Assembly (NCBI GenBank): GCA_945905765.1
Contig: CAMDPZ010000009.1
Span: forward strand, 1-46,309
Direction of reading: 5' to 3'
Source of the DNA: Nitrospira lenta
GTDB lineage: Bacteria > Nitrospirota > Nitrospiria > Nitrospirales > Nitrospiraceae
DNA length: 46,309 nucleotides
The notes under the pieces were generated by a model. It saw nothing but the letters and a program-made list of their open reading frames with translations. It searched no databases and was not told the DNA's origin. The position numbers and the translations under genes were made by a program. Every line of letters begins with the position of its first letter. Positions within the stretch are counted from its first letter, which is position 1. Of this stretch, positions 1 to 10,030 are shown in pieces.

Positions 1-1559
1 TGCTGAATCGGCAAACTCATCAAGGATTCCTGCAACCGGCGCAGCGAATAGAGTCTCGCGCTGGAGGTCGGCGTGCTGTCGAACAGCAACAACGACACGG
101 CCCCGGTCGTGGGGTCCACGACGCCTCTGCCCGTGATCGAGACATAGACTACGGTGGTCAGGTCCAGATGCATCGGCAGCCACTCGTCCAAGACCTCGAC
201 CAGGTCGCTCTTGAGGGCATGGGCATCCAGGAGGGTGCGCACGCGCTCGTGAGGAATGCCTCCGACCGATTTGAGATAGCTGGCCATAGCCTCCGCATCC
301 CGCGTGGCATACTTGACCCGGGCCAGGCTGCTCTCCCGGAACTGCCCCACGCCGATGACGATGCCGACGGCCTTCGGCTGTTTGAGCAGGCCCGTCCACT
401 TCGGCACCTGATCCACATCCACCGGCTGCGCCTGGGCTTCCTTCGCGGACTCAGGCTTCATGGCCACTAGAAACTTTTTGGCGTTGGGCAGCTGGACGGA
501 CGAGGACCCGGCCCGCAAAACCAGCGTCAATTCCGCCTGCACCGCCTCTTGGACCAGGCCGACCTTACCGTCCACCGTCACACGCTTGACCTCGCCTGGC
601 TGGAGATCGCCGATGGAAACCAGGCTGGGGATTCGCTCGATCAAGGGAGGCATGGCGGTCACAGACAATTCGACCGCCTTAGCAATGCCCGGCCCTTCAT
701 TTTTGACTTCCAGTTCGATCGCGATGGCTTCCCCGCTGTGGACCACCTGATTGCGGTTCTCGTCACGGACGATCGCCCGGAAGATCACCTTTGCCGATTC
801 GTCCACTGGAGCCGGCGCAGAAACTGATACAGCCGATTGCGGCGCAACTGGCTTGGGCGCCGGAACGGAAACCCCGCTGCCTGCCACAGGAGAGGGAGGA
901 GGAACGGATGCTGCTGCAGCCTGGGCGCGTCCTGCCTTCCGGGCGTCTGCTGCATTGAGGATCCTGCTCGATGTCCCCAGTTGCTTGGCCATGCCGTCCG
1001 TCACGAGGCCGAAGGCCTCTTGGGCAATCTTATCCAGGCCCTTCACTTCGCAGGAAGAGGCGGTGACCTCGACCTCACCGCGGCCGATGCTTTGGATTTT
1101 CTTACTATGCAAAACCGTGCCATCGGCAGCCGTGTAGGCGAAATCCAATCCCACCGTGACAGTGGCTGGATAACTTCTGTTGGCCTGTCGCACGACCGCC
1201 AGATCGAGATGGATGATGCCCAGCGCCACATCGACATAGCCGTCCGGCACAGACGAGGGGCCTGCCTCGCCGGTCAGGACCTTTTCGAAGACGCGGCCTG
1301 TTTTATGTTTGAGCGCATCCTGTAATGGAGCGGCGAGCGATAGGGATTGCGGCTGGCCGCAGGCATCCTGATAGGCCAGCTGCGCCCCGGCGATGCTGGC
1401 ATCCGCGCGGAGCTGAACCGTGAGCGGGAGATAATAGCCAATGGTCGCGCCATTGCGGCCGGAGAAAAGCGAGCAGCTCGTCAACGCCACGATACAGATC
1501 CCCGCGCTCACCCAGGAGGTTGCGCGAAGGAGAACGGACGATCTTGCTGAATTAATCAC
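1..1559 (-). CDS. Lipoprotein with CARDB-like and degenerate caspase-like (C14) domains, 3' end outside window
   Basis: An open frame of about 519 codons runs from a GTG at 1559 to the window edge without a stop. The first 29 residues form a lipoprotein signal: a charged start, a hydrophobic stretch and the lipobox LTSC with Cys29, so the protein is probably anchored on the periplasmic face. A Pro/Ala-rich linker follows, then a beta-rich segment (about 245-345) resembling CARDB adhesion-type domains. From about residue 395 the pattern matches a caspase p20 fold: a VIGVGQF strand, then ATRDAEAMASYL, GGIPHERV, and VVYVSITGRG before a LYSLRRLQESL segment. Family members normally have GHG with the catalytic His; here codon 126-128 is Arg. 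The catalytic Cys would lie beyond the window. GTG codons at 1565 and 1568 are alternative starts, and no clear ribosome site is visible. It is likely a scaffold or binding protein rather than a protease. Confidence 0.8.
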   Translation of the reverse strand, partial: MINSARSSVLLRATSWVSAGICIVALTSCSLFSGRNGATIGYYLPLTVQLRADASIAGAQLAYQDACGQPQSLSLAAPLQDALKHKTGRVFEKVLTGEAGPSSVPDGYVDVALGIIHLDLAVVRQANRSYPATVTVGLDFAYTAADGTVLHSKKIQSIGRGEVEVTASSCEVKGLDKIAQEAFGLVTDGMAKQLGTSSRILNAADARKAGRAQAAAASVPPPSPVAGSGVSVPAPKPVAPQSAVSVSAPAPVDESAKVIFRAIVRDENRNQVVHSGEAIAIELEVKNEGPGIAKAVELSVTAMPPLIERIPSLVSIGDLQPGEVKRVTVDGKVGLVQEAVQAELTLVLRAGSSSVQLPNAKKFLVAMKPESAKEAQAQPVDVDQVPKWTGLLKQPKAVGIVIGVGQFRESSLARVKYATRDAEAMASYLKSVGGIPHERVRTLLDAHALKSDLVEVLDEWLPMHLDLTTVVYVSITGRGVVDPTTGAVSLLLFDSTPTSSARLYSLRRLQESLMSLPIQ

Positions 1560-1683
1560 ATGCACCACATTCTTATACAGAAAATCAGTCAACGAGCACA
1601 ACCGGCGCCACAGCCAAATTATTCCCTACAAGGCCACAACAAATGGTTAAAGATCATCCTCCACGCTCCTCAGCATTTTTTCA

Positions 1684-1780
1684 GGGATGGAGGCTGATTG
1701 ATCTTCCACTGCGCGCGTCCAACGAGGGCCTTCCGAGGCTGCGCGTTGCGCGAGCACAGAAGATCATCAGCCTCCATCCC
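1684..1780. repeat. Hairpin repeat element A (shares core with 4591-4683)
   Basis: The left arm 1684-1706 and right arm 1759-1780 are complementary over 22 bp with one bulged T. The interior contains a core (from CACTG at 1707 to the AGAAG ending at 1762) that is nearly the same as in the element at 4591-4683. The arms have a different sequence from that second element but are still self-complementary. It lies between the divergent caspase-like lipoprotein and ubiA genes, just upstream of the ubiA promoter. Function unknown; it could be a mobile palindromic repeat or a structured RNA. Confidence 0.8.
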
Positions 1781-1795
1781 CCTACAAGCCACTCG

Positions 1796-1824
1796 TTGAC
1801 AGCCCCTCCCCCCTCGGCTAAGTT
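1796..1824 (+). promoter_or_regulatory. Sigma70-like promoter of ubiA, leaderless
   Basis: TTGACA (1796-1801), a 17-nt C-rich spacer and TAAGTT (1819-1824). The expected transcription start is around 1831, directly at the ATG at 1832, so the mRNA would have essentially no leader. This placement supports the 1832 start over the longer upstream frame. Confidence 0.5.
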
Positions 1825-1831
1825 CAAGCCC

Positions 1832-2719
1832 ATGATTGAATCTTCGTCACCGGCGCCGGGACCGAAACTGTCCTGGTCTGCCATCAGCCGGCTCATCCGC
1901 CTGCAGAGCCAGACCGGAACCTGGCTGCTCCTGCTCCCGACCCTCTGGTCCCTGGTCTTGGCGGCTCGCGGCCTGCCGCCCCTCCACTTGCTGGCCATCT
2001 TCGTCGCAGGGTCTTTCGTGATGCGCAGCGCGGGAGTCGTGCTGAACGATTTGGCGGACCGCTCGTTCGACCGCCATGTGACCCGCACGCTGGTGCGGCC
2101 CCTCGCCTCCGGCGAACTCAGCGTCCCTCATGCCCTGCTGACCCTCGGCTTCTTTCTCGCTCTGGCTGGTCTGCTCGTGCTGCTGCTAGACCCTCTGACG
2201 ATCCTCCTGAGCCCGATCGCCATCCTCCTGGCTGCCCTCTATCCCTTTGCGAAACGGGTCATCCATATTCCGCAAGCCATGCTGGGGATCGCCTTCGGCT
2301 GGGGCACCATCATGGCCTGGGCCGCTTCGCGGGGCGCCATCGACGCGCCTGCCTGGTGCCTCTTTGCTGCGACGGTCTGCTGGGCGATCGGATACGACAC
2401 GATCTACGCCCTGCAAGACAGGGAGGACGATCGCAGGATCGGCGTGAAATCATCGGCCCTGCTGTTCGGCCCATCCACCTGGATCGCCGTCGGCACGGCC
2501 CTCTGCGCGATGTTGCTGCTGCTGGGATTGGCTGGCTGGCTGACCCAGATCGGCTGGGTCTACTATGCAGTGCTTGCTGCTGTGGGAAGTTGGTGTCTGA
2601 GGCAAGCAGGACAGATCAGGGAAGTTGTCTCGGCCCCTACCGCCTTCCACATGTTTCAACAACATGTGTGGGTAGGAGCCGTAATTCTGCTAGGAATGAT
2701 CGCGGGATTTCTGCTCTGA
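1832..2719 (+). CDS. ubiA: UbiA-family 4-hydroxybenzoate/aromatic polyprenyltransferase
   Basis: An integral membrane prenyltransferase that attaches a polyprenyl chain to an aromatic acid in quinone synthesis. The protein has 295 residues and about eight hydrophobic helices. The first Asp-rich motif is NDLADRSFD (residues 72-80) and the second is LQDREDDRRIG (about 194-204); these bind Mg-diphosphate. The N-terminal segment with LPTLWSL and the RPLASGELS stretch closely resemble enterobacterial UbiA. The frame stays open 63 codons upstream, but that part crosses the hairpin repeat and promoter and does not look like protein, so ATG 1832 is chosen; it gives the usual family length. The gene is convergent with the respiratory operon: its stop at 2717-2719 abuts the next gene's stop at 2720. 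If the organism makes menaquinone by the futalosine route, the substrate could differ (MqnP-like), which the sequence alone does not settle. Confidence 0.88.
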   Translation: MIESSSPAPGPKLSWSAISRLIRLQSQTGTWLLLLPTLWSLVLAARGLPPLHLLAIFVAGSFVMRSAGVVLNDLADRSFDRHVTRTLVRPLASGELSVPHALLTLGFFLALAGLLVLLLDPLTILLSPIAILLAALYPFAKRVIHIPQAMLGIAFGWGTIMAWAASRGAIDAPAWCLFAATVCWAIGYDTIYALQDREDDRRIGVKSSALLFGPSTWIAVGTALCAMLLLLGLAGWLTQIGWVYYAVLAAVGSWCLRQAGQIREVVSAPTAFHMFQQHVWVGAVILLGMIAGFLL

Positions 2720-3736
2720 TCAGCCGGCTGGCTTTTCGATCGGGGCATCAGGCTTCGGCGCTCGCAACGTACCCAAATACATCGTGATGGCCTTCGCATC
2801 GGCATCGCTAAGCCCGAGCGCCGGCATTCTGGTCTCCGGCTTCATCGCCTGAGGATTCTTCACCCAGCGATAAATCCAGGTCCCGTTCAAGCGGAATCCT
2901 GCCCGGTCGAGCGCCGGTCCGACTTTGCCGCCCTCTGTGCCGATGCTGTGGCAGCCGTTGCAGCCGTACTTGTTCGAATAGAGACGCTTGCCCTGCTCCA
3001 CCATTTCCGCGACCAGTTCCGGCTTCACGGTCAGATCGGGACGGGCAACGTTCGCGCCTTTCCCAGGCCTGGCGGTGAAATTGGTCACAGCCATCTGCGC
3101 CACGTCGAGTTCTTTTTTCGCCTGGATCATGGCCGCCAGTTCTTTGGCGTAAGTGGACTCGTCTGCCTCCACGTCCTTCTTCAACTCTTCGCTCTTCTTT
3201 TCCGCTTCGTCGCTCGCCTTCTTTTCGGCCGCCTCGTAGGCCTGCTTGGCCTGGTCCGACTTGCTCTGAGCCGCTTGGAGCGCTGCCGCCAGCTCCTTCT
3301 TCCGTTCCTCGACTTTAAACTCCAGCTTCATGCCGTGGAGGCCGCGGACATAGCCGACGATCGCCCAGATCTCGTCTTCCGACAGGGTGTACTTGAAGGT
3401 CGGCATGGTGGGCACGGCGAAATCGTCATCGCCGATCTTGTCGCCACCGGGACTCGTGTCCTTCATGTCGCGGGAAATCGTATTGAAAATGTCTTCGTCC
3501 TTGAAGGTGCCCATCTCCGACTTGTTCGAGAGATCTTTGGGCTTCGGGTCCGGCATCGACGACCAATTGAACCCTTCGTTCTGACGACCGTTCTCGCCGT
3601 GGCAATGCATGCAGTAGTGGCTGTAGAGTTCATGCCCCTTCTGCTGTTGCTCGCTGGCGCAGCCGCCTGCCACCATGGCCCAGAGGCCGATCAGTCCACC
3701 AACCGTTCCTAGTGCAAAGAGCCGAGCCGCCTTCAT
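2720..3736 (-). CDS. Dihaem cytochrome c lipoprotein with central coiled coil
   Basis: An electron-transfer protein of 338 residues, last gene of the respiratory operon. The signal sequence ends in a lipobox with Cys26. Two class I haem sites are visible: CMHCH at 42-46 and CNGCH at 259-263. Met-containing segments after each (MPTF, RMPALG) are candidate axial ligands. Between the two haem domains lies a long Ala/Glu/Lys-rich stretch (about 140-215) predicted as coiled coil, which would hold the domains apart. A longer open frame runs upstream, but it overlaps the NxrC-like gene; ATG 3736 overlaps that gene's stop by 4 bp (ATGA), indicating translational coupling. It is likely the soluble-side electron donor or acceptor for the complex encoded upstream. 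Confidence 0.87.
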   Translation of the reverse strand: MKAARLFALGTVGGLIGLWAMVAGGCASEQQQKGHELYSHYCMHCHGENGRQNEGFNWSSMPDPKPKDLSNKSEMGTFKDEDIFNTISRDMKDTSPGGDKIGDDDFAVPTMPTFKYTLSEDEIWAIVGYVRGLHGMKLEFKVEERKKELAAALQAAQSKSDQAKQAYEAAEKKASDEAEKKSEELKKDVEADESTYAKELAAMIQAKKELDVAQMAVTNFTARPGKGANVARPDLTVKPELVAEMVEQGKRLYSNKYGCNGCHSIGTEGGKVGPALDRAGFRLNGTWIYRWVKNPQAMKPETRMPALGLSDADAKAITMYLGTLRAPKPDAPIEKPAG

Positions 3737-4560
3737 GCTGATTGCCCTTTCTTTAGCTTGCGGATCAGAATGAACTGAAATCCGAGAGCCAGGCCCACGG
3801 CGAGAGCCGCGTAGTAATAACCGGAGTAGTCCGGTGGCGCTTCTGCGCGGAAATACCACCAGGAAGAGACCGCCTTTTGCGACCCCTTCTCTTTCAGCTC
3901 GCCGCTTGCGTCCTTCTTCCCGTCCCAGACGGCGAAGGCGATGTTGATGAAGCCACCGGTCGTGATCTGCGTATCTTCCTCCGGATGTCCGGTGGTGAGC
4001 GGCCTGGTGAAGACCACTTTCCAGGTGCCGTTGGCATAGGCGCCCTTGGCCTTCACGTCCTGGTGCGGCTGCACGCTGAGCGTGCCGAAGCCCTTGGCAT
4101 TCATGTCCACGCCTTTGGCGTCTTTGTTCTTCCAATACCAGATGTTGACCGGGCCGCCTTCCACCTGCGCCATCGGCTGGCCATGCGCGAAGTGGGCTTT
4201 CTTGTCGCCCACCATGAATTCAATGGCGGCGGCATCGTCCGGATCTTCCGAGGGATCGGTATATTCCAAGAGGATGGCGACGTTCGTCCCGTCGTGCAGG
4301 GCGCGCACGCTCAGGTCCCGGACCGTCGCTTCCAGAATGCGGTTCGGCCAATGGACTTGCGGCGACATCGGGAAGGTAGCCGGAATCGCGCTGGCCCAGA
4401 CCGCCGCGTTCGGGTCATCGGCAGGCAAGGAGCCCTTCACCATCGGGGCGCGAACCGCAATGCCCTCTTGAGCTGCAACAGGTTCCGCAACGAGGAACCC
4501 CATGGCCAGCAATACACCGGCAACGACGCCCGTGGCGATTTTACTCAGTCCATGCTTCAT
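3733..4560 (-). CDS. NxrC-like haem b subunit (ethylbenzene dehydrogenase gamma family), membrane-anchored
   Basis: The 275-residue product starts with a Sec-type signal peptide (hydrophobic 9-27, then VAAQEG). It continues as a beta-rich domain resembling the haem b-binding gamma subunit of DMSO-reductase-type enzymes such as ethylbenzene dehydrogenase and nitrite oxidoreductase. Typical signatures are the VRALHDGTNVAILLEYTD stretch, the HFAHGQPM segment and the late FINIAFAVWDG. A C-terminal membrane helix (about 250-268) followed by KKGQ anchors it. ATG 4560 is preceded by AGAGAGGA at good spacing; a GTG at 4584 is an in-frame alternative. Here the gene sits inside a cytochrome operon without NxrA or NxrB, so it probably passes electrons to or from cytochromes c. 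The exact role is inferred. Confidence 0.78.
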   Translation of the reverse strand: MKHGLSKIATGVVAGVLLAMGFLVAEPVAAQEGIAVRAPMVKGSLPADDPNAAVWASAIPATFPMSPQVHWPNRILEATVRDLSVRALHDGTNVAILLEYTDPSEDPDDAAAIEFMVGDKKAHFAHGQPMAQVEGGPVNIWYWKNKDAKGVDMNAKGFGTLSVQPHQDVKAKGAYANGTWKVVFTRPLTTGHPEEDTQITTGGFINIAFAVWDGKKDASGELKEKGSQKAVSSWWYFRAEAPPDYSGYYYAALAVGLALGFQFILIRKLKKGQSA

Positions 4561-4590
4561 AAATTTCGTCCTCTCTCTACTCACGTCTCA

Positions 4591-4683
4591 GAGGGTGGGG
4601 CTTTGTGCCTTCCACTGGCGTCCACCGAGCACCTTCCGAGTCTGCGCGGTGCGCGAGCACAGAAGGCATAGAGGCCTACCCTC
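4591..4683. repeat. Hairpin repeat element B (same family as 1684-1780)
   Basis: The left arm 4591-4612 pairs with the right arm 4662-4683 over 22 positions with one mismatch and three G-T wobbles when read on the + strand. The core shares the CACTG start, the CCTTCCGAG segment and the GCGCGAGCACAGAAG end with element A. An inner helix is CACCG/CGGTG here against CAACG/CGTTG in element A, a compensatory change. It fills the gap between the NxrC-like gene and the upstream cytochrome c gene, whose stop codon begins 2 nt away. Confidence 0.8.
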
Positions 4684-4685
4684 GT

Positions 4686-5405
4686 CTACTCCCACGTTCT
4701 GGGAGATTGATGCGCGCCATCATACTCGCCCATGATGATTTTCCAGATCCACTCGTCGGGCAATTCGACTTCCCAGCGCGGCATCGCAGACTTCCACGGC
4801 ATGCCCTCGATCGGGAGGCCGACGCCGCCCTTCTTGATGCGCCAGAAGAGATAGCTTTCCTGGAGCATGGCGATCGTCGTGGGATCGGAGAAGTTGGCCG
4901 GAGGAGGATTGAATCCTCTGGCGGCCGGGCCCTTCCCGTCGAAGTTTCCGCCGTGGCAGGGGGAACAGAATGCGGCATAGAAGCCCTTCCCCTGCTGAAT
5001 CGTATCCGGTGTCTTCGCGACAGGATTCGAGAGACCGGTATATTCGCCTGGCGGAGCCGGATGGATCGTCCGGTTTTCGGCAGGCGGCGCATCGCTGGTC
5101 GCCGTGCTGTTGTAGGTCTGCCAGCCGACGATCAGAGGGAACAACAAGAGCACTCCGTACCGGAGCACTTGCAAGCTGCCGATGTTCTCTCCGGTCAGAA
5201 ACCGCTGGATCGGACCCCAGAACGCGTCTTTGGACTCTCCGCTCAAGGTGGCGAAGATCACAATGCCCGACGTCGTCAGCATCAGATACAGGAAGATCAG
5301 ACTGGCCGGCAGCGGCGCCGAGCCAGGGATATTCGGCACAACGAACTTCAAGATCGTATAGACGATCCCGATCAAGATGACCGGCTTAAGCAACGAGCCC
5401 CCCAT
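4686..5405 (-). CDS. Membrane-bound monohaem cytochrome c
   Basis: The 239-residue protein has three N-terminal membrane segments (about 5-24, 36-54, 83-95) followed by a periplasmic class I cytochrome c domain. The haem site is CSPCH (147-151), with later Met residues (EGMPW, SAMPRW) as likely axial ligand candidates. GDG-like segments (GNFDGKGPAARG) after the haem match other small cytochromes c in this operon. An AGGAGG ribosome site precedes ATG 5405 with 6-nt spacing. It lies 9 nt downstream of the next cytochrome c gene, so the two are certainly cotranscribed. It is probably a tethered electron carrier of the CydA-like/bc module; partner not known. Confidence 0.87.
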   Translation of the reverse strand: MGGSLLKPVILIGIVYTILKFVVPNIPGSAPLPASLIFLYLMLTTSGIVIFATLSGESKDAFWGPIQRFLTGENIGSLQVLRYGVLLLFPLIVGWQTYNSTATSDAPPAENRTIHPAPPGEYTGLSNPVAKTPDTIQQGKGFYAAFCSPCHGGNFDGKGPAARGFNPPPANFSDPTTIAMLQESYLFWRIKKGGVGLPIEGMPWKSAMPRWEVELPDEWIWKIIMGEYDGAHQSPRTWE

Positions 5406-5414
5406 ACGTTCCTC

Positions 5415-6038
5415 CTAGTGCGCTTGCGCCACGTCGACTGGACCGGACTGAGCTACCTTCACCGGGGCGGCAGACGCCTGTCCCGGCACTTCGAGTTCAG
5501 CGACAGTGACGGAAATCGGTTCCCCGCTCATTTGCTGCAGGAAGGCGATGACCGACAGAATTTCATTCTTGGACAGCCCGATCGGGTTCTTATTGATGTA
5601 GGGCATCCGGGCCGGATATTCCTTCGGCTGGCCTTCATGGCGGTAGTCGAGATAGATGTAGGCCTGGGGCTGCGTCAAACTCTCAAAGAGAAATTCGCGG
5701 CTCAGCTTGGCGCCGATCCCTTTCAGGTCCGGGCAACGGGCCGATTCGCTGGGCCCGATCGTATGGCAGAGCGCGCATTGGCCCTTGCTGAAGAAAATCT
5801 TTTGCCCGATGGTCGCTATGTCGGTCGGCGTTTTCACCGTGGCAATGTCGAACTTCTCCTCGACCGGCGGCAGAGATGCCATCTGCGGCACCGACAGCGC
5901 GACGAGCGTAAAGAGGCCGAGAACGATCGCGACGAATCCGATGACCCGGACGAACTGGGCTCGAATCAGAAGCAGAATCAGGGCCCCGCTCCCCACAATC
6001 ATCAGACCGATCAACTGCAATTTAGCAACTTCGCTCAT
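5415..6038 (-). CDS. Membrane-bound monohaem cytochrome c
   Basis: 207 residues: two membrane helices at the N-terminus (about 8-26 and 33-50), then a class I cytochrome c domain with CALCH at 88-92. A Met in ARMPYINKN is the likely distal haem ligand, and the NEILSVIAFLQQMS helix is the conserved C-terminal helix of such domains. The C-terminal tail is Ala/Val-rich. AGAGGAG lies 6 nt before ATG 6038. It sits directly downstream of CydA-like protein 1 and upstream of a second membrane cytochrome c, which suggests that these two cytochromes are subunits of, or donors to, the CydA-like protein. A cytochrome c rather than a quinol donor would fit the lack of a recognisable quinol site there. Confidence 0.86.
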   Translation of the reverse strand: MSEVAKLQLIGLMIVGSGALILLLIRAQFVRVIGFVAIVLGLFTLVALSVPQMASLPPVEEKFDIATVKTPTDIATIGQKIFFSKGQCALCHTIGPSESARCPDLKGIGAKLSREFLFESLTQPQAYIYLDYRHEGQPKEYPARMPYINKNPIGLSKNEILSVIAFLQQMSGEPISVTVAELEVPGQASAAPVKVAQSGPVDVAQAH

Positions 6039-6065
6039 AGGACTCCTCTTGCGAAATCGATCGCC

Positions 6066-7844
6066 TCAGCTATGCGGCGCCTTCGCCTTATCGCTCATCG
6101 TGGCTACCCAGAAGATGAACGCGACAATCATGCAGAAAACAAATGTATTCAAAGCCATGATCGCAGCCGCATACCCAAGCGCCGGCGAAAATGCGTATTG
6201 CGACGAATCCCGGAGCACGCCATACACATGCCAATGGACGCGCGAGGACGACCTGGCGTAACCCATCAGCGTCATGAGCAGGATGACCATGATCGCATTC
6301 AGGACGAGGGCGTAGCCGGCGCGAGGCGGCATCTTGCCCCAGACCATTTCCGTCGTGGTCTTGGCGCTCTTCAGCAGCAAGGCCGTCAACGGCGTGATCG
6401 TCAACATGACGAAGAGCACGATCAACACTTGCGACGTCGAGAAGTAGTTGATGCGGACGATGGCCGGCACGAAGTAGCCCCAGACGCCCAGGACGACGAC
6501 GGCGATTCCGGCGAGGACCAGCAAGGAGCTCATGACCGCTTTCGCGGCCTTCGCCCATCCGGCGGTTTCTTCCTTACCCGCGCGCCAATACATGATGAAG
6601 CTCATGAAGGTGACGAGAATCATCAAGTTCGACACGGTCATTTTCGCCGACATGACGCCGAAGACTCCCAACAGCGGATGGTGGGTGCCTCCCATCTTTC
6701 TCGCTTCTTCCAAGCTCGCCACGAGGGAGTGAGGCGTCATCCAGACACCGAGACACAAGAGCAGAATGATCAGCATCGACAGCATCGGCTTCCGGTACTT
6801 CAGCTCGGAGCCGGGAATGCGATAGGTGATCCCCAGCCAGAAGTCGTAATTCGAGCCGAGGAAGAGCACGCCGATGAGCATGGCCTGGAGAATGAAGAGC
6901 CAGGAGAGGAAGCCGCCCATGAGCGTGATGCCCATCTGCTGGTTGTACTGATAAATTTCGCGCATGAGCCAGTAACCGGCAAAGGGGAGCGGCAGGAGGC
7001 CGAACACCCCGATGAAGTTCCCGACATAACCCATCCAATCGTAGTGATCGCGCTCTTCCGCGTTCCTGGCGGAGAGGTAGCGAATCCCGGCGTAGGCGCC
7101 GCAAATGTAACCGCCCAACACCACGTTCGCGATCAAACGGTGAATGTTCACCGGCCACCAGGTCGGATTCCAGGTTGCAGCCCAGGCCCTGGCGAGGTCC
7201 GAGCCCTCGGCCAGCACGACCGGACTGGCCTGGAACGTGGCCCAGGAGTTCGGCACGATCATGATGAAGAAGGCGAAGAAATTCAGCATGAAACCGAGGA
7301 AAATATGGAACTTCTTCTTGCCGCCATCCTGCATCGCATCCCAGCCATACCAATAGAGGTACAGGGTCGCGGTCTCAACCAAGAACAGGAGGCAATAGAC
7401 GATGAACGACGGGAAGAAAATATCCGTCAGGTAGTTCATCAACTTGGGATAGAAGGAGATCAGCAGGAACAAGAGAATGCCGCCGAAGAGCGCCGTCGTG
7501 GCATAGGCGGAGGTCAGCAGCTTGGTAAACTCCTTGGCGAGTTTATCGTAGCGCTTTTCGCCGGTCTTCCAGGCGACGACTTCGCACAACCAGGCGAAGA
7601 TCGGCACGCCCAGCACAAACCCTGCGAGCAGCAAATGGAGCTGCGCGACAACCCAGACGAGATTGCGGCTGCCGATGTAGGGAATATCGCGATATTCGGT
7701 CGCGGCGGCCGGTGCGACATCGGCCCCGAAGGCCAGCGCGGGAAGACTGAGGAGGCCGACGGCCCACAACAGCCCTGAGAGCATCCCCCCCTGGCCCTTG
7801 ACGGCCTGGAGAAATCTCTGAATCCATCCACCCTGTTGTTGCAT
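6066..7844 (-). CDS. CydA-like (cytochrome bd superfamily) membrane protein 1
   Basis: 592 residues with many membrane helices, homologous in layout to cytochrome bd subunit I. Residues resembling the CydA haem ligands are His70 (AQLHLL) and His235 (NIHRL), with an acidic Glu157 in LVETATLYLYWYGW. The usual GRQPW quinol-oxidase motif is not seen; instead there is a WMTPHSLVA segment. An unusual feature is a clear N-terminal signal-like segment ending ALAFGA (about 21-41) before the first His helix. The start ATG 7844 follows GAGGTGA with 5-nt spacing; a GTG at 7868 is an alternative. No CydB gene is present in the window. Neighbours are cytochromes c on one side and complex III on the other. 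Nitrospira genomes are known to carry several such bd-like proteins proposed as oxidases or as parts of reverse electron flow; which applies here is open. Confidence 0.82.
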   Translation of the reverse strand: MQQQGGWIQRFLQAVKGQGGMLSGLLWAVGLLSLPALAFGADVAPAAATEYRDIPYIGSRNLVWVVAQLHLLLAGFVLGVPIFAWLCEVVAWKTGEKRYDKLAKEFTKLLTSAYATTALFGGILLFLLISFYPKLMNYLTDIFFPSFIVYCLLFLVETATLYLYWYGWDAMQDGGKKKFHIFLGFMLNFFAFFIMIVPNSWATFQASPVVLAEGSDLARAWAATWNPTWWPVNIHRLIANVVLGGYICGAYAGIRYLSARNAEERDHYDWMGYVGNFIGVFGLLPLPFAGYWLMREIYQYNQQMGITLMGGFLSWLFILQAMLIGVLFLGSNYDFWLGITYRIPGSELKYRKPMLSMLIILLLCLGVWMTPHSLVASLEEARKMGGTHHPLLGVFGVMSAKMTVSNLMILVTFMSFIMYWRAGKEETAGWAKAAKAVMSSLLVLAGIAVVVLGVWGYFVPAIVRINYFSTSQVLIVLFVMLTITPLTALLLKSAKTTTEMVWGKMPPRAGYALVLNAIMVILLMTLMGYARSSSRVHWHVYGVLRDSSQYAFSPALGYAAAIMALNTFVFCMIVAFIFWVATMSDKAKAPHS

Positions 7845-7869
7845 GGCCCTCACCTCATCATCTCCCACG

Positions 7870-8886
7870 TTACGGTTTCTTGGCGGCAGGCGGAGCCGGC
7901 GCGGTTGTCGCCGGCGTTTTCACTGCAGCTGTGCCTGCCTTACCATTGCCCTTGCTCTTCTTCGTATTGGCCGCGTCGGCTTCCGCCTTCTGCTTTTCCA
8001 GCGCCTCGACTTGCGCAGTGAGCTGCGCCAGCATCTTCTCGTCTTTATTCAGCGTCTCGACCGGCTTGAAGACGTGCGCCGCCTTCACTTCCGGCTTCTT
8101 ACAGCATTCATGCGGGTGCGGCGTAAAGACCGGCAAGGACGACCAGAACAGGAGCGACAAGACCACCGCCCCTCCGGTCAAGGCCGTCAACATCAACCCC
8201 TGGTCCGCCGGCACCCGCATCAGGTCCCAGCGGGTAATCAGCTGTTGATAGCTCTCCGACGCAGGAGCGGCCGACTCCACTGTGCCGCGGATGATCCGCC
8301 CCACGAGCCACAGTCCAACGACTGACAGGCCCAGCAACATTCCCGTGGCCACTGTACCCCAGAGGACCAGCTCAATACTGATTTTTTCCGCAACCGGCAC
8401 GAACTTGAGGAAATCCATCTCGAACATCGAATGGGAAGTCGCAATCGCCGTTTCCGTCGTGAAACTCACCGTCACCCAGAGGGCAGGCAGAAAGAGTCCG
8501 CCGACCAGCGCGCATTTCCACCAGAGCGTGAGCCCTAACCCCTCTTGCGGTTCACGCTTCAACTGTTCGAGGAAAAATGTGCGGCCCACGACCCCGAGCG
8601 CCCAGATATCGATCGGGATCGACATGAGAAAGAGCAAGGGGATACCGACCCCTTCCCCGAGGTGCGAATCCAATCCCAAGATGATCGTAGGAAGCGCAAA
8701 CACCGTGACAGGGCTCGTCAGGAGCATCAAGAAGGCGAGACCGATTCTGGCCTCAAAATGCACCATCCCGAGCGAGAGAAACAGGAGCACCAAGGCCAGC
8801 TTAATCGGCAAACCGGTCCAGAAGGCGGGCCAGAGGATGCCGAACCCGAGCTTTGTGGGACACATTGAATCGCGTTCGTTGCTCAT
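7870..8886 (-). CDS. Unknown polytopic membrane protein with C-terminal coiled coil, in bc operon
   Basis: I do not recognise a named family. The 338-residue product has about six hydrophobic segments spread over residues 15-255. After the last one comes a His/Cys-containing stretch (HPHECCKKP), then a Leu/Glu/Lys coiled coil (about 280-305) and an Ala/Pro/Lys-rich tail. It lies between cytochrome b and CydA-like protein 1 with short gaps (31 nt to cytochrome b, 25 nt to the next start), so it is cotranscribed with both. It has no haem c motif. Position suggests an accessory or bridging subunit of a bc/CydA-like assembly, but this is inference. The paired cysteines next to His might bind metal. 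ATG 8886 is used; an in-frame ATG lies seven codons later, and neither has a strong ribosome site. Confidence 0.75.
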
Positions 8887-8917
8887 AGCAGGCCGAATCC
8901 GTTCTGCGAGATCGCCA

Positions 8918-10030
8918 CTAATCCAAAAACTCTCGGTTGATAATGGCAGAGATCGTGAAAATCAGGATCGCCGCCATGACCACCACCCATCCGATTAGCG
9001 CAACAGGCCGTTTGAAAATATTCCGCTCCGGGTCCCGGTCGATGAAGGGCAAGACGGCCAGCAAGGCCATGAAGGCGCCTGGCAAAGCCATCGCCCCGAC
9101 AAACTGTCCGAGCTCGCCGGAGAACATCTTCAAACGCAACAGCTGAAACAAGAAGAGGAAATACCACTCCGGCTCCGGGTGATAATCGCCCGGGTCAGGC
9201 GTCGCCTCTTCCAGCAACACCACCGGCTCCCAGAAAGCCAGAGCGCAGATGCAGGCAAACACGGTCGCCATCCCGACGATGTCTTTCCAGATCTGTCGCG
9301 GGAAGAAATAATCGGTCTTCGCCTTCAGCTCTGCCGGTGTGCCCCGGAATGGACCGGCTGGTCCGGCGGATCTGAAGAGGAACAGATGCAGCCCGGCCAA
9401 CCCCATCAGGGCTGCGGGAAGCACCATCACGTGGATGACAAAGAACCGGCTCAGCGTCATTTGCCCTGGAGTGGCGCCTCCCTTGAGAAACCGGGCGATG
9501 AAATCGCCGATCAACGGCGTCTTGTCCATGATCTCGACGCCGACGGTCGTGGCCCAATAGGCCCGCTGGTCCCAGGGGAGCAGATAGCCTGTGAAGCCGA
9601 ATCCCATGACGATGCCGAAGAGCGCCAGGCCCACCAGCCAGATCAGTTCACGCGGCTTCTTGTACGCGCCCCAGAGAAAGACTTGGGACATATGGGCAAA
9701 CACGCAGACCACCATGGCCGTAGAGCCCCAGAAATGGTAGCTCAGCAGGAACCAGCCATAGTCAACGTCATGCAGAATGTATTGGGTGCTGGCATAGGCA
9801 TGGTCAGCGGTAGGCACGTAGTAGAACATCAACAGCACGCCCGTGATGGCCTGCATGATGAAGATGAACAACAGCACCGACCCGAAGACATAGGCCCAGC
9901 GAGAGCCGCCAGGGACCGGCTCGTTGAGCATCTTGGCGACAAGGAGCTTCAGCCCGACCCGTTCATCGACAAAGTCGATGATTTTTTCGACGATCGTTGC
10001 CTGCGCGTTAGGAGAAGGGGTGTGGCTCAT
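8918..10030 (-). CDS. Cytochrome b of a bc-type complex III
   Basis: The 370-residue protein fuses the cytochrome b6-like part and the subunit IV-like part. Haem ligands in helix B are His99 and His113 (13 residues between). Those in helix D are His200 and His215 (14 between), the longer spacing typical of b6-type proteins. The quinol-oxidation motif PEWYF is at 287-291 and the [10 protein letters not shown] segment of the Qo site is present. The ATG at 10030 directly abuts the Rieske stop (TAG then ATG), so translation is coupled. The complex passes electrons between quinone and cytochrome c; in nitrite oxidisers such complexes are also proposed to run backwards to reduce quinone. No separate cytochrome c1 is recognisable; a membrane cytochrome c of this operon probably serves instead. 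Confidence 0.92.

Follow-up and report, generated by a model that had tools for sequence, protein, structure and literature searches.

Two covarying hairpins of Nitrospira lenta as candidate members of a REP-like family of exchangeable palindromes

The window analysed here, a stretch of 46,309 nucleotides from Nitrospira lenta (assembly GCA_945905765.1, contig CAMDPZ010000009.1, positions 1 to 46,309 of the forward strand), holds two hairpins that carry a common core, or tip, on stems of different sequence; they are called element 1 and element 2 (Table 1). Judging from sequence comparisons, I see about an even chance that both belong to a family of palindromes, each some 100 nt long, that is specific to Nitrospiraceae, selfish and exchangeable, and that resembles repetitive extragenic palindromic (REP) elements; a status as selected RNA is not clear. 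The standard case for a functional RNA is made from covariation, and this repeat family passes covariation counts though its orthologous copies drift and its tips swap; it is a natural test case of selection versus palindrome-directed mutation or exchange. It is also abundant in Nitrospira, which are key nitrifiers, and would have consequences for the annotation of gene ends.

On re-reading the window sequence, the coordinates, the arms and the common core of both hairpins are as in the original prediction, and the inner helix indeed changes on both sides, from CAACG/CGTTG in element 1 to CACCG/CGGTG in element 2. The placement is also as described, with element 1 between divergent genes and element 2 ending 2 nt from the stop codon of an operon gene. 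On the + strand, element 1 folds with -62.6 kcal/mol (z -8.8) and element 2 with -55.2 kcal/mol (z -5.7), and none of 200 shuffles is as good in either case. The G-T wobbles of element 2 sit on the + strand; on the - strand, from which the operon is read, they turn into A-C mismatches, and element 2 there reaches -42.8 kcal/mol (z -2.7; 4 of 200 shuffles as good). The operon mRNA would thus carry the complement of element 2, with the poorer fold.

Family size, covariation and placement

The original prediction counted two copies only, which holds for the window but not for the genome. A BLAST search with element 1 gave 42 matches in its own genome, corresponding to 41 places because one match is element 1 on its own reverse strand; some of these are half copies. 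In a sample of 61 genomes (this one and 60 relatives), BLAST matches occur in 36 genomes from 5 of 16 genera, including all 32 genomes of the own genus, and in none of the 24 genomes outside the own family. The covariance model search across Nitrospira genomes that had been proposed as a check was run on 148 Nitrospirota genomes, with filters that lose some weak matches; it found the family in 39, all within the own family (39 of 41), and in none of the 107 others. A pattern scan of named genomes returned at least 114 stretches, and the 80 matches listed all come from Nitrospira, Nitrospiraceae, Nitrospirae or Nitrospirota records, N. defluvii FP929003 among them. In the genomes searched, no member has so far come up outside Nitrospira and its close relatives. 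My searches of the open-licence literature brought up no description of the family; a RepRanger table lists N. moscoviensis with the values 3,788 and 635, taken here to stand for short REP candidates and for terminators, and the accompanying passages do not name the hairpin family. One genome of the own genus (G020, 1.8 Mb) has just 11 matches with weaker scores, and by eye these copies appear decayed, as if the spread had ended in this small genome.

Searching for the core gave 258 hits, 22 of them partial, and 208 of the 236 full hits were left after removal of duplicates, short flanks and stretches with N; the seed profile consisted of 35 sequences, and a later profile search re-read all loci. 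Read on the + strand of the window, a copy consists of a variable arm, a 3-base step, the 47-base core, a 2-base step and the other arm. Members measure about 100 nt with roughly 37 pairs, and their stem of about 20-25 bp differs between loci. Over the 208 copies the median score of arm pairing is 32 within a copy, against 15.5 when arms are dealt between copies, and the 188 copies with well-paired arms fall into 68 arm clusters.

An alignment of 50 copies (A1), in which 48 of 66 representatives are set beside the two elements of the window and which is gap-free except for the latter, has both-sided changes at 28 of 37 pairs, including all 21 arm pairs. Its covariation score is 0.416 against 0.168 +/- 0.009 in shuffles (0 of 500 as high) and at most 0.246 with slid partners; its pairing percentages are inflated, because the 48 added copies were the best-paired ones of a list ordered by arm pairing. 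For a repeat of the arm test, copies were clustered by their left arm only, and 52-55 representatives were then picked at random. In these unselected copies the paired share of arm cells is 65.5-67.9%; re-dealing whole right arms lowers it to 51% (highest 56.7%), and double-change cells fall from 273-285 to 125-133 (highest 179). Sliding the partners by one base still leaves 59-62% paired and 202-243 double-change cells, as would be expected if some arms were out of register by one. The covariation across copies is real, also in copies picked regardless of pairing. It is borne out well beyond the two original copies.

Gene contexts were taken from a simple codon-usage gene finder written for this analysis, with no annotation used. 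For the 208 copies the contexts by gene orientation are '--' 94, '+-' 37, '-+' 24, '++' 16 and others 37, and only 3 copies lie inside a called gene. In + orientation, most copies have a stop codon 3' of them, so that a message from the upstream gene would include the element as its - strand. The excess of '--' over '++' persists in the 68 representatives (36 to 4), in the own genome alone (16 to 3) and in the unselected representatives (29:4, 28:4 and 27:3). Of 140 copies that have paired arms and such a 3' stop, 74 lie within 15 nt of it; among these 74, 44 follow a TAG stop, against 320 of 986 genes at large, the copies being non-independent. Element 2 conforms to the orientation rule, and element 1, in its divergent spacer, does not. 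The random placement expected of a simple insertion element is thus not what is seen. Orientation relative to replication, counted with dnaA as origin in three complete genomes (G166, G140 and G107) out of six genomes searched, was 51 to 26. This bias was set aside, being weaker than the gene-orientation bias and perhaps its mere result.

Orthologous sites, strand and tip exchange

The original prediction took covariation as the mark of selection for structure, and this step is not borne out, since single changes in orthologues ignore pairing. In the 25 of 30 orthologue comparisons that passed a threshold of 70% arm identity, 61 single-sided arm changes kept the pair 20 times, against 17.7 expected at random, and of the double changes four keep the pair and two break it; such arm-identity filters exclude loci with exchanged arms. 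Within orthologous copies there is some co-evolution and no strong constraint. The strand of the message gives no further support to selection for structure. Among the 50 best-paired copies, 33 have their better fold on the + strand and not on the strand of the mRNA (p 0.004), and so do 28 to 35 of the 52-55 unselected ones (35:19, 28:22 and 30:22; p 0.018, 0.085 and 0.025). G-U exceeds A-C on the + strand by 230 to 99 in 196 related copies and by 79 to 41 in the 68 well-paired representatives; the ratio is 93 to 70 at fixed register and 33 to 39 in orthologues, and in the unselected representatives it is 123:102, 105:91 and 113:102, none of them significant. A fair statement is that nothing found favours the mRNA strand.

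Turnover of the elements is seen at both window sites. By covariance model, the site of element 1 is occupied in 4 of 29 orthologous loci (G000, G001, G011 and G017), a fifth hit (L078), about 400 nt upstream of the gene, being left out of the count; in G001 the element is of a different subtype, although the neighbouring gene is 97% identical. The site of element 2 is occupied in 25 of 30 loci, by differing subtypes, and G013 has a mosaic there of the native left arm and a right arm of the GATCTCC kind. When 21 stop-proximal elements of the own genome were compared with four congeners, the core was present at 35 of 72 usable orthologous gene ends and absent from 37, which also speaks against the selection reading. 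Other palindrome types or subtypes occupy some of these slots in close relatives, and at the gatB-eno locus 7 of 27 loci viewed (30 fetched) hold the studied type by eye, one of them degenerate. Of the 37 slots that lack the core, 11 have a strong hairpin, compared with 20 of 120 control ends (191 were available); at p 0.06, conservation of a hairpin slot is not claimed. Two element-less orthologues keep the outer left arm, in G015 at the second L025 locus and in G001 at the L038 locus. The idea that right arms are inverted host sequence from behind the stop codon was dropped, as deletion equally explains retained arms.

Arms and tips are found in changing combinations. At the L019 locus, G000 and G015 have one core type and G001 another, and G003 is a mosaic in which the second core and left arm are joined to the first right arm. 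At the L021 locus G003 has kept the arms and bears a GGTCTGTCTGGT-type palindrome as tip; at the second L007 locus G001 and G003 have a common left arm with different tips. A regular-expression search returned 202 normal tips and 6 split cores, 3 of the latter with a GGTCTGTCTGGT-type palindrome. Of 38 distinct GATCT-type copies, 15 follow immediately on the left half core of another element, and the outer arms around them are of several kinds; 5 are flanked by both half cores, the outer arms of which still pair with scores of 16 to 36. Together with the nesting, arms that carry different tips show the tip to be a module that occurs on more than one stem, just as stems occur with different tips. 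The different arms around one core would stem at least partly from the exchange of hairpin tips between stems. I also looked for cores entering the loops of plain hairpins, and rejected this candidate, as by eye the orthologues viewed contain no plain hairpin with the same arms.

Some other palindromes were noticed in the same places. A palindrome of about 125 nt (type C), CAGGCTGCTGAAAAAG ... GTACCC/GGGTAC ... CTTTTTGAGCAGCCTG, stands at many Nitrospira gene ends, often with the TAG stop of the gene at its foot and frequently with the studied family inside; it was seen at the gatB-eno locus (L308-L333), and in G001 at the L021 and L034 loci. Long hairpins of GGTCTGTCTGGT-like repeats (type D; L299, L261, L025) are also present in the divergent spacers of the element 1 site in several congeners (L055-L079), and as tips of studied elements. 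AT-rich repeat palindromes, for example AAAAGTAAAAATG ... TTTTTACTTTT, and AGCTTATAGC-like repeats fill the slots of relatives in the L011, L030 and L035 orthologues.

Weighing the explanations

In the explanation that I prefer, a selfish and exchangeable REP-like family, copies would spread as units, some of them together with their arms, and tips would swap between palindromic stems through DNA-level recombination or through template switching at hairpins. Recombination at half cores, insertion into hairpin tips and template switching are all conceivable routes to the observed combinations of tip and stem. Pairing would mostly arise at the making or movement of an element and be only weakly maintained afterwards, and a hairpin behind a stop codon may, as is reported for E. 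coli REPs, act secondarily on the ends of mRNAs or on the termination of translation. The option of a mobile palindrome family, one of those named originally, fits these findings. A bolder version, in which the exchange of tips counts as a separate mode of movement, with palindromes colonising the tips of other palindromes until one tip is found on many stems that are unrelated but paired, and with nested, interchangeable hairpins at the gene ends of the whole bacterial family mimicking the covariation of functional RNAs, is tentative and on balance somewhat improbable. Several findings weigh against a selfish family. Over 51 orthologue pairs that passed a 60% arm-identity filter, non-independent as they are, 21 double changes were counted against 8.6 expected, 13 of them paired, an excess which indicates that pairing is not wholly neutral. 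The retention of the element at the site of element 2 speaks for some use there. No mobiliser was found, and the 72 orthologous ends in four relatives gave no clean junction of empty and filled site of the kind that marks MITEs, duplications not having been searched systematically; a locus without the core may have lost it by deletion or may never have been filled.

The excess of paired double changes and the retention of element 2, together with the covariation and the position and orientation at stop codons, would be at home with a hairpin that serves the host as RNA, by protecting mRNA or slowing ribosomes at the stop in post-stop or intercistronic position, under selection on its structure. 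There is also a precedent in E. coli, where REPs at most 15 nt from a stop codon are reported, in passages of PMC12306157, to stall ribosomes and lower translation, so that a host effect of the Nitrospira hairpins is possible. However, a structure under selection would not be expected to lose and keep pairs near the random rate after single changes, to fold better as the complement of the message, to lack its core at half of the orthologous ends with strong hairpins in so few of the coreless ones, or to persist at the site of element 1 in so few loci; I regard a host-useful RNA as rather unlikely. Rfam has only miRNA models far below their cut-off for window positions 1-9000 (E up to 1), and no match at the curated cut-off for six further loci. 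As to how the arms arose, template switching in replication has to be taken seriously as a competing explanation. According to passages of PMC8794818 it can write paired changes, and create hairpin stems, in a single event, so that covariation is not by itself proof of selection for RNA structure; locus-specific, well-paired arms and neutral-looking single changes are what switching inside palindromes would make and keep, with neither special tip exchange nor selection. Taken alone, however, it leaves unexplained why one common tip sits in dozens of stems, why foreign palindromes serve as tips, why elements are nested within different outer arms, and why they are restricted to stop codons in one orientation, and as a full account it is unlikely.

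Two more familiar explanations fare worse. REPs mobilised by a RAYT (Y1/HUH transposase) are described in passages of PMC3733652 as lying close to the 3' ends of genes and as varying between alternative complementary bases in their stems, and Y1_Tnp genes are present in 12 of 23 own-genus genomes searched. However, the other 11 have no Y1_Tnp match and all carry the hairpin family, the own genome (90% complete) has none either, and the GTAG tag stands at the 5' foot in just 5 of the 68 representatives, where a control stretch gives 1 of 68, which makes a RAYT system very improbable here. Nor do other tags stand out: GTAG is found at the 3' foot in 3 of 68 (control 2), CGTC has 1 occurrence at the 5' foot, compared with 2 in the control, and none at the 3' foot, and its complement GACG is found at the 5' foot in 7 of 68 (control 3). 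Intrinsic transcription terminators would account for strong hairpins right after stop codons, but the T fraction behind the hairpin on the mRNA strand is 0.18, only 3 of 68 have five T in eight, and element 2 lies inside an operon. A terminator scan lists neither element, a weak point since its loop limit is 3-8 bases; terminators are barely credible as an explanation.

Surrounding genes and comparison with known systems

The genes around the two elements are listed with the parts of the hairpins in Table 1. Upstream of the UbiA-like gene, at 1796-1825, is a promoter-like stretch TTGACA ... TAAGTT, which can be made out by eye in almost every orthologous locus viewed, whichever repeat lies upstream, and which is absent from the listing of a consensus promoter scan.

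Table 1. Parts of the two hairpins and genes around them, in window positions
Feature	Position	Strand	Remarks
Element 1, whole hairpin	1684..1780	+	divergent spacer, upstream of UbiA-like gene; 97.5 bits with model R1
Element 1, left arm	1684..1706	+	partner 1759-1780, one bulge
Element 1, core (tip), 47 nt, conserved	1710..1756	+	inner helix 1720-1724 with 1744-1748
Element 1, right arm	1759..1780	+	
Element 2, whole hairpin	4591..4683	+	within respiratory operon read from the - strand; 72 bits with covariance model
Element 2, left arm	4591..4612	+	
Element 2, inner helix and tip between	4623..4651	+	CACCG (4623-4627) / CGGTG (4647-4651)
Element 2, right arm	4662..4683	+	end 2 nt from stop codon 4686-4688 (- strand)
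Gene left of element 1	3-1592	-	gene finder
UbiA prenyltransferase family gene	1832..2719	+	downstream of element 1
Operon gene	2720-3736	-	gene finder
EB_dh/DOMON-like gene	3733..4563	-	downstream of element 2 in operon; called by the gene finder at 3733-4560; DOMON score under curated cut-off
Cytochrome c family gene	4686..5405	-	element 2 comes after its stop codon
Operon genes	5415-6038 and 6066-7868	-	gene finder

In the general sense of the term the hairpins resemble REPs, as they are repeated, extragenic and palindromic and exist in many copies (41 places in the own genome; 3 of 208 intragenic). With the GTAG/CGTC REPs, as far as these are described in passages of PMC3733652, they have in common that there are many intergenic palindromes per genome near the 3' ends of genes, with subfamilies differing in alternative complementary stem bases and an uneven distribution between species. 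However, those REPs are palindromes of 20-40 bp with stems of 5-13 bp, whereas the Nitrospira hairpins measure about 100 nt with about 37 pairs, have no conserved tag, carry one tip on many stems, keep a fixed orientation to the upstream gene and are nested. With no GTAG/CGTC tag, a larger size and no Y1 transposase found in the own genome, I call the family REP-like and place it outside the GTAG/CGTC REPs. The stop-proximal REPs of E. coli (passages of PMC12306157) are alike in their position just after stop codons; their sequence is unrelated, and the Nitrospira family is known here from sequence and does not fold better on the mRNA strand. IS1397, ISKpn1 and IS621, which target REPs (passages of PMC1525189), are comparable as mobile DNA entering palindromes, but the insert in the tip of a Nitrospira hairpin is itself a short palindrome without genes. 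Template-switch hairpins are alike in that a single event can form or rewrite a stem and leave changes that look compensatory; the passages concerned (PMC8794818) describe no common repetitive tip and no genome-wide spread, which are features of the Nitrospira family.

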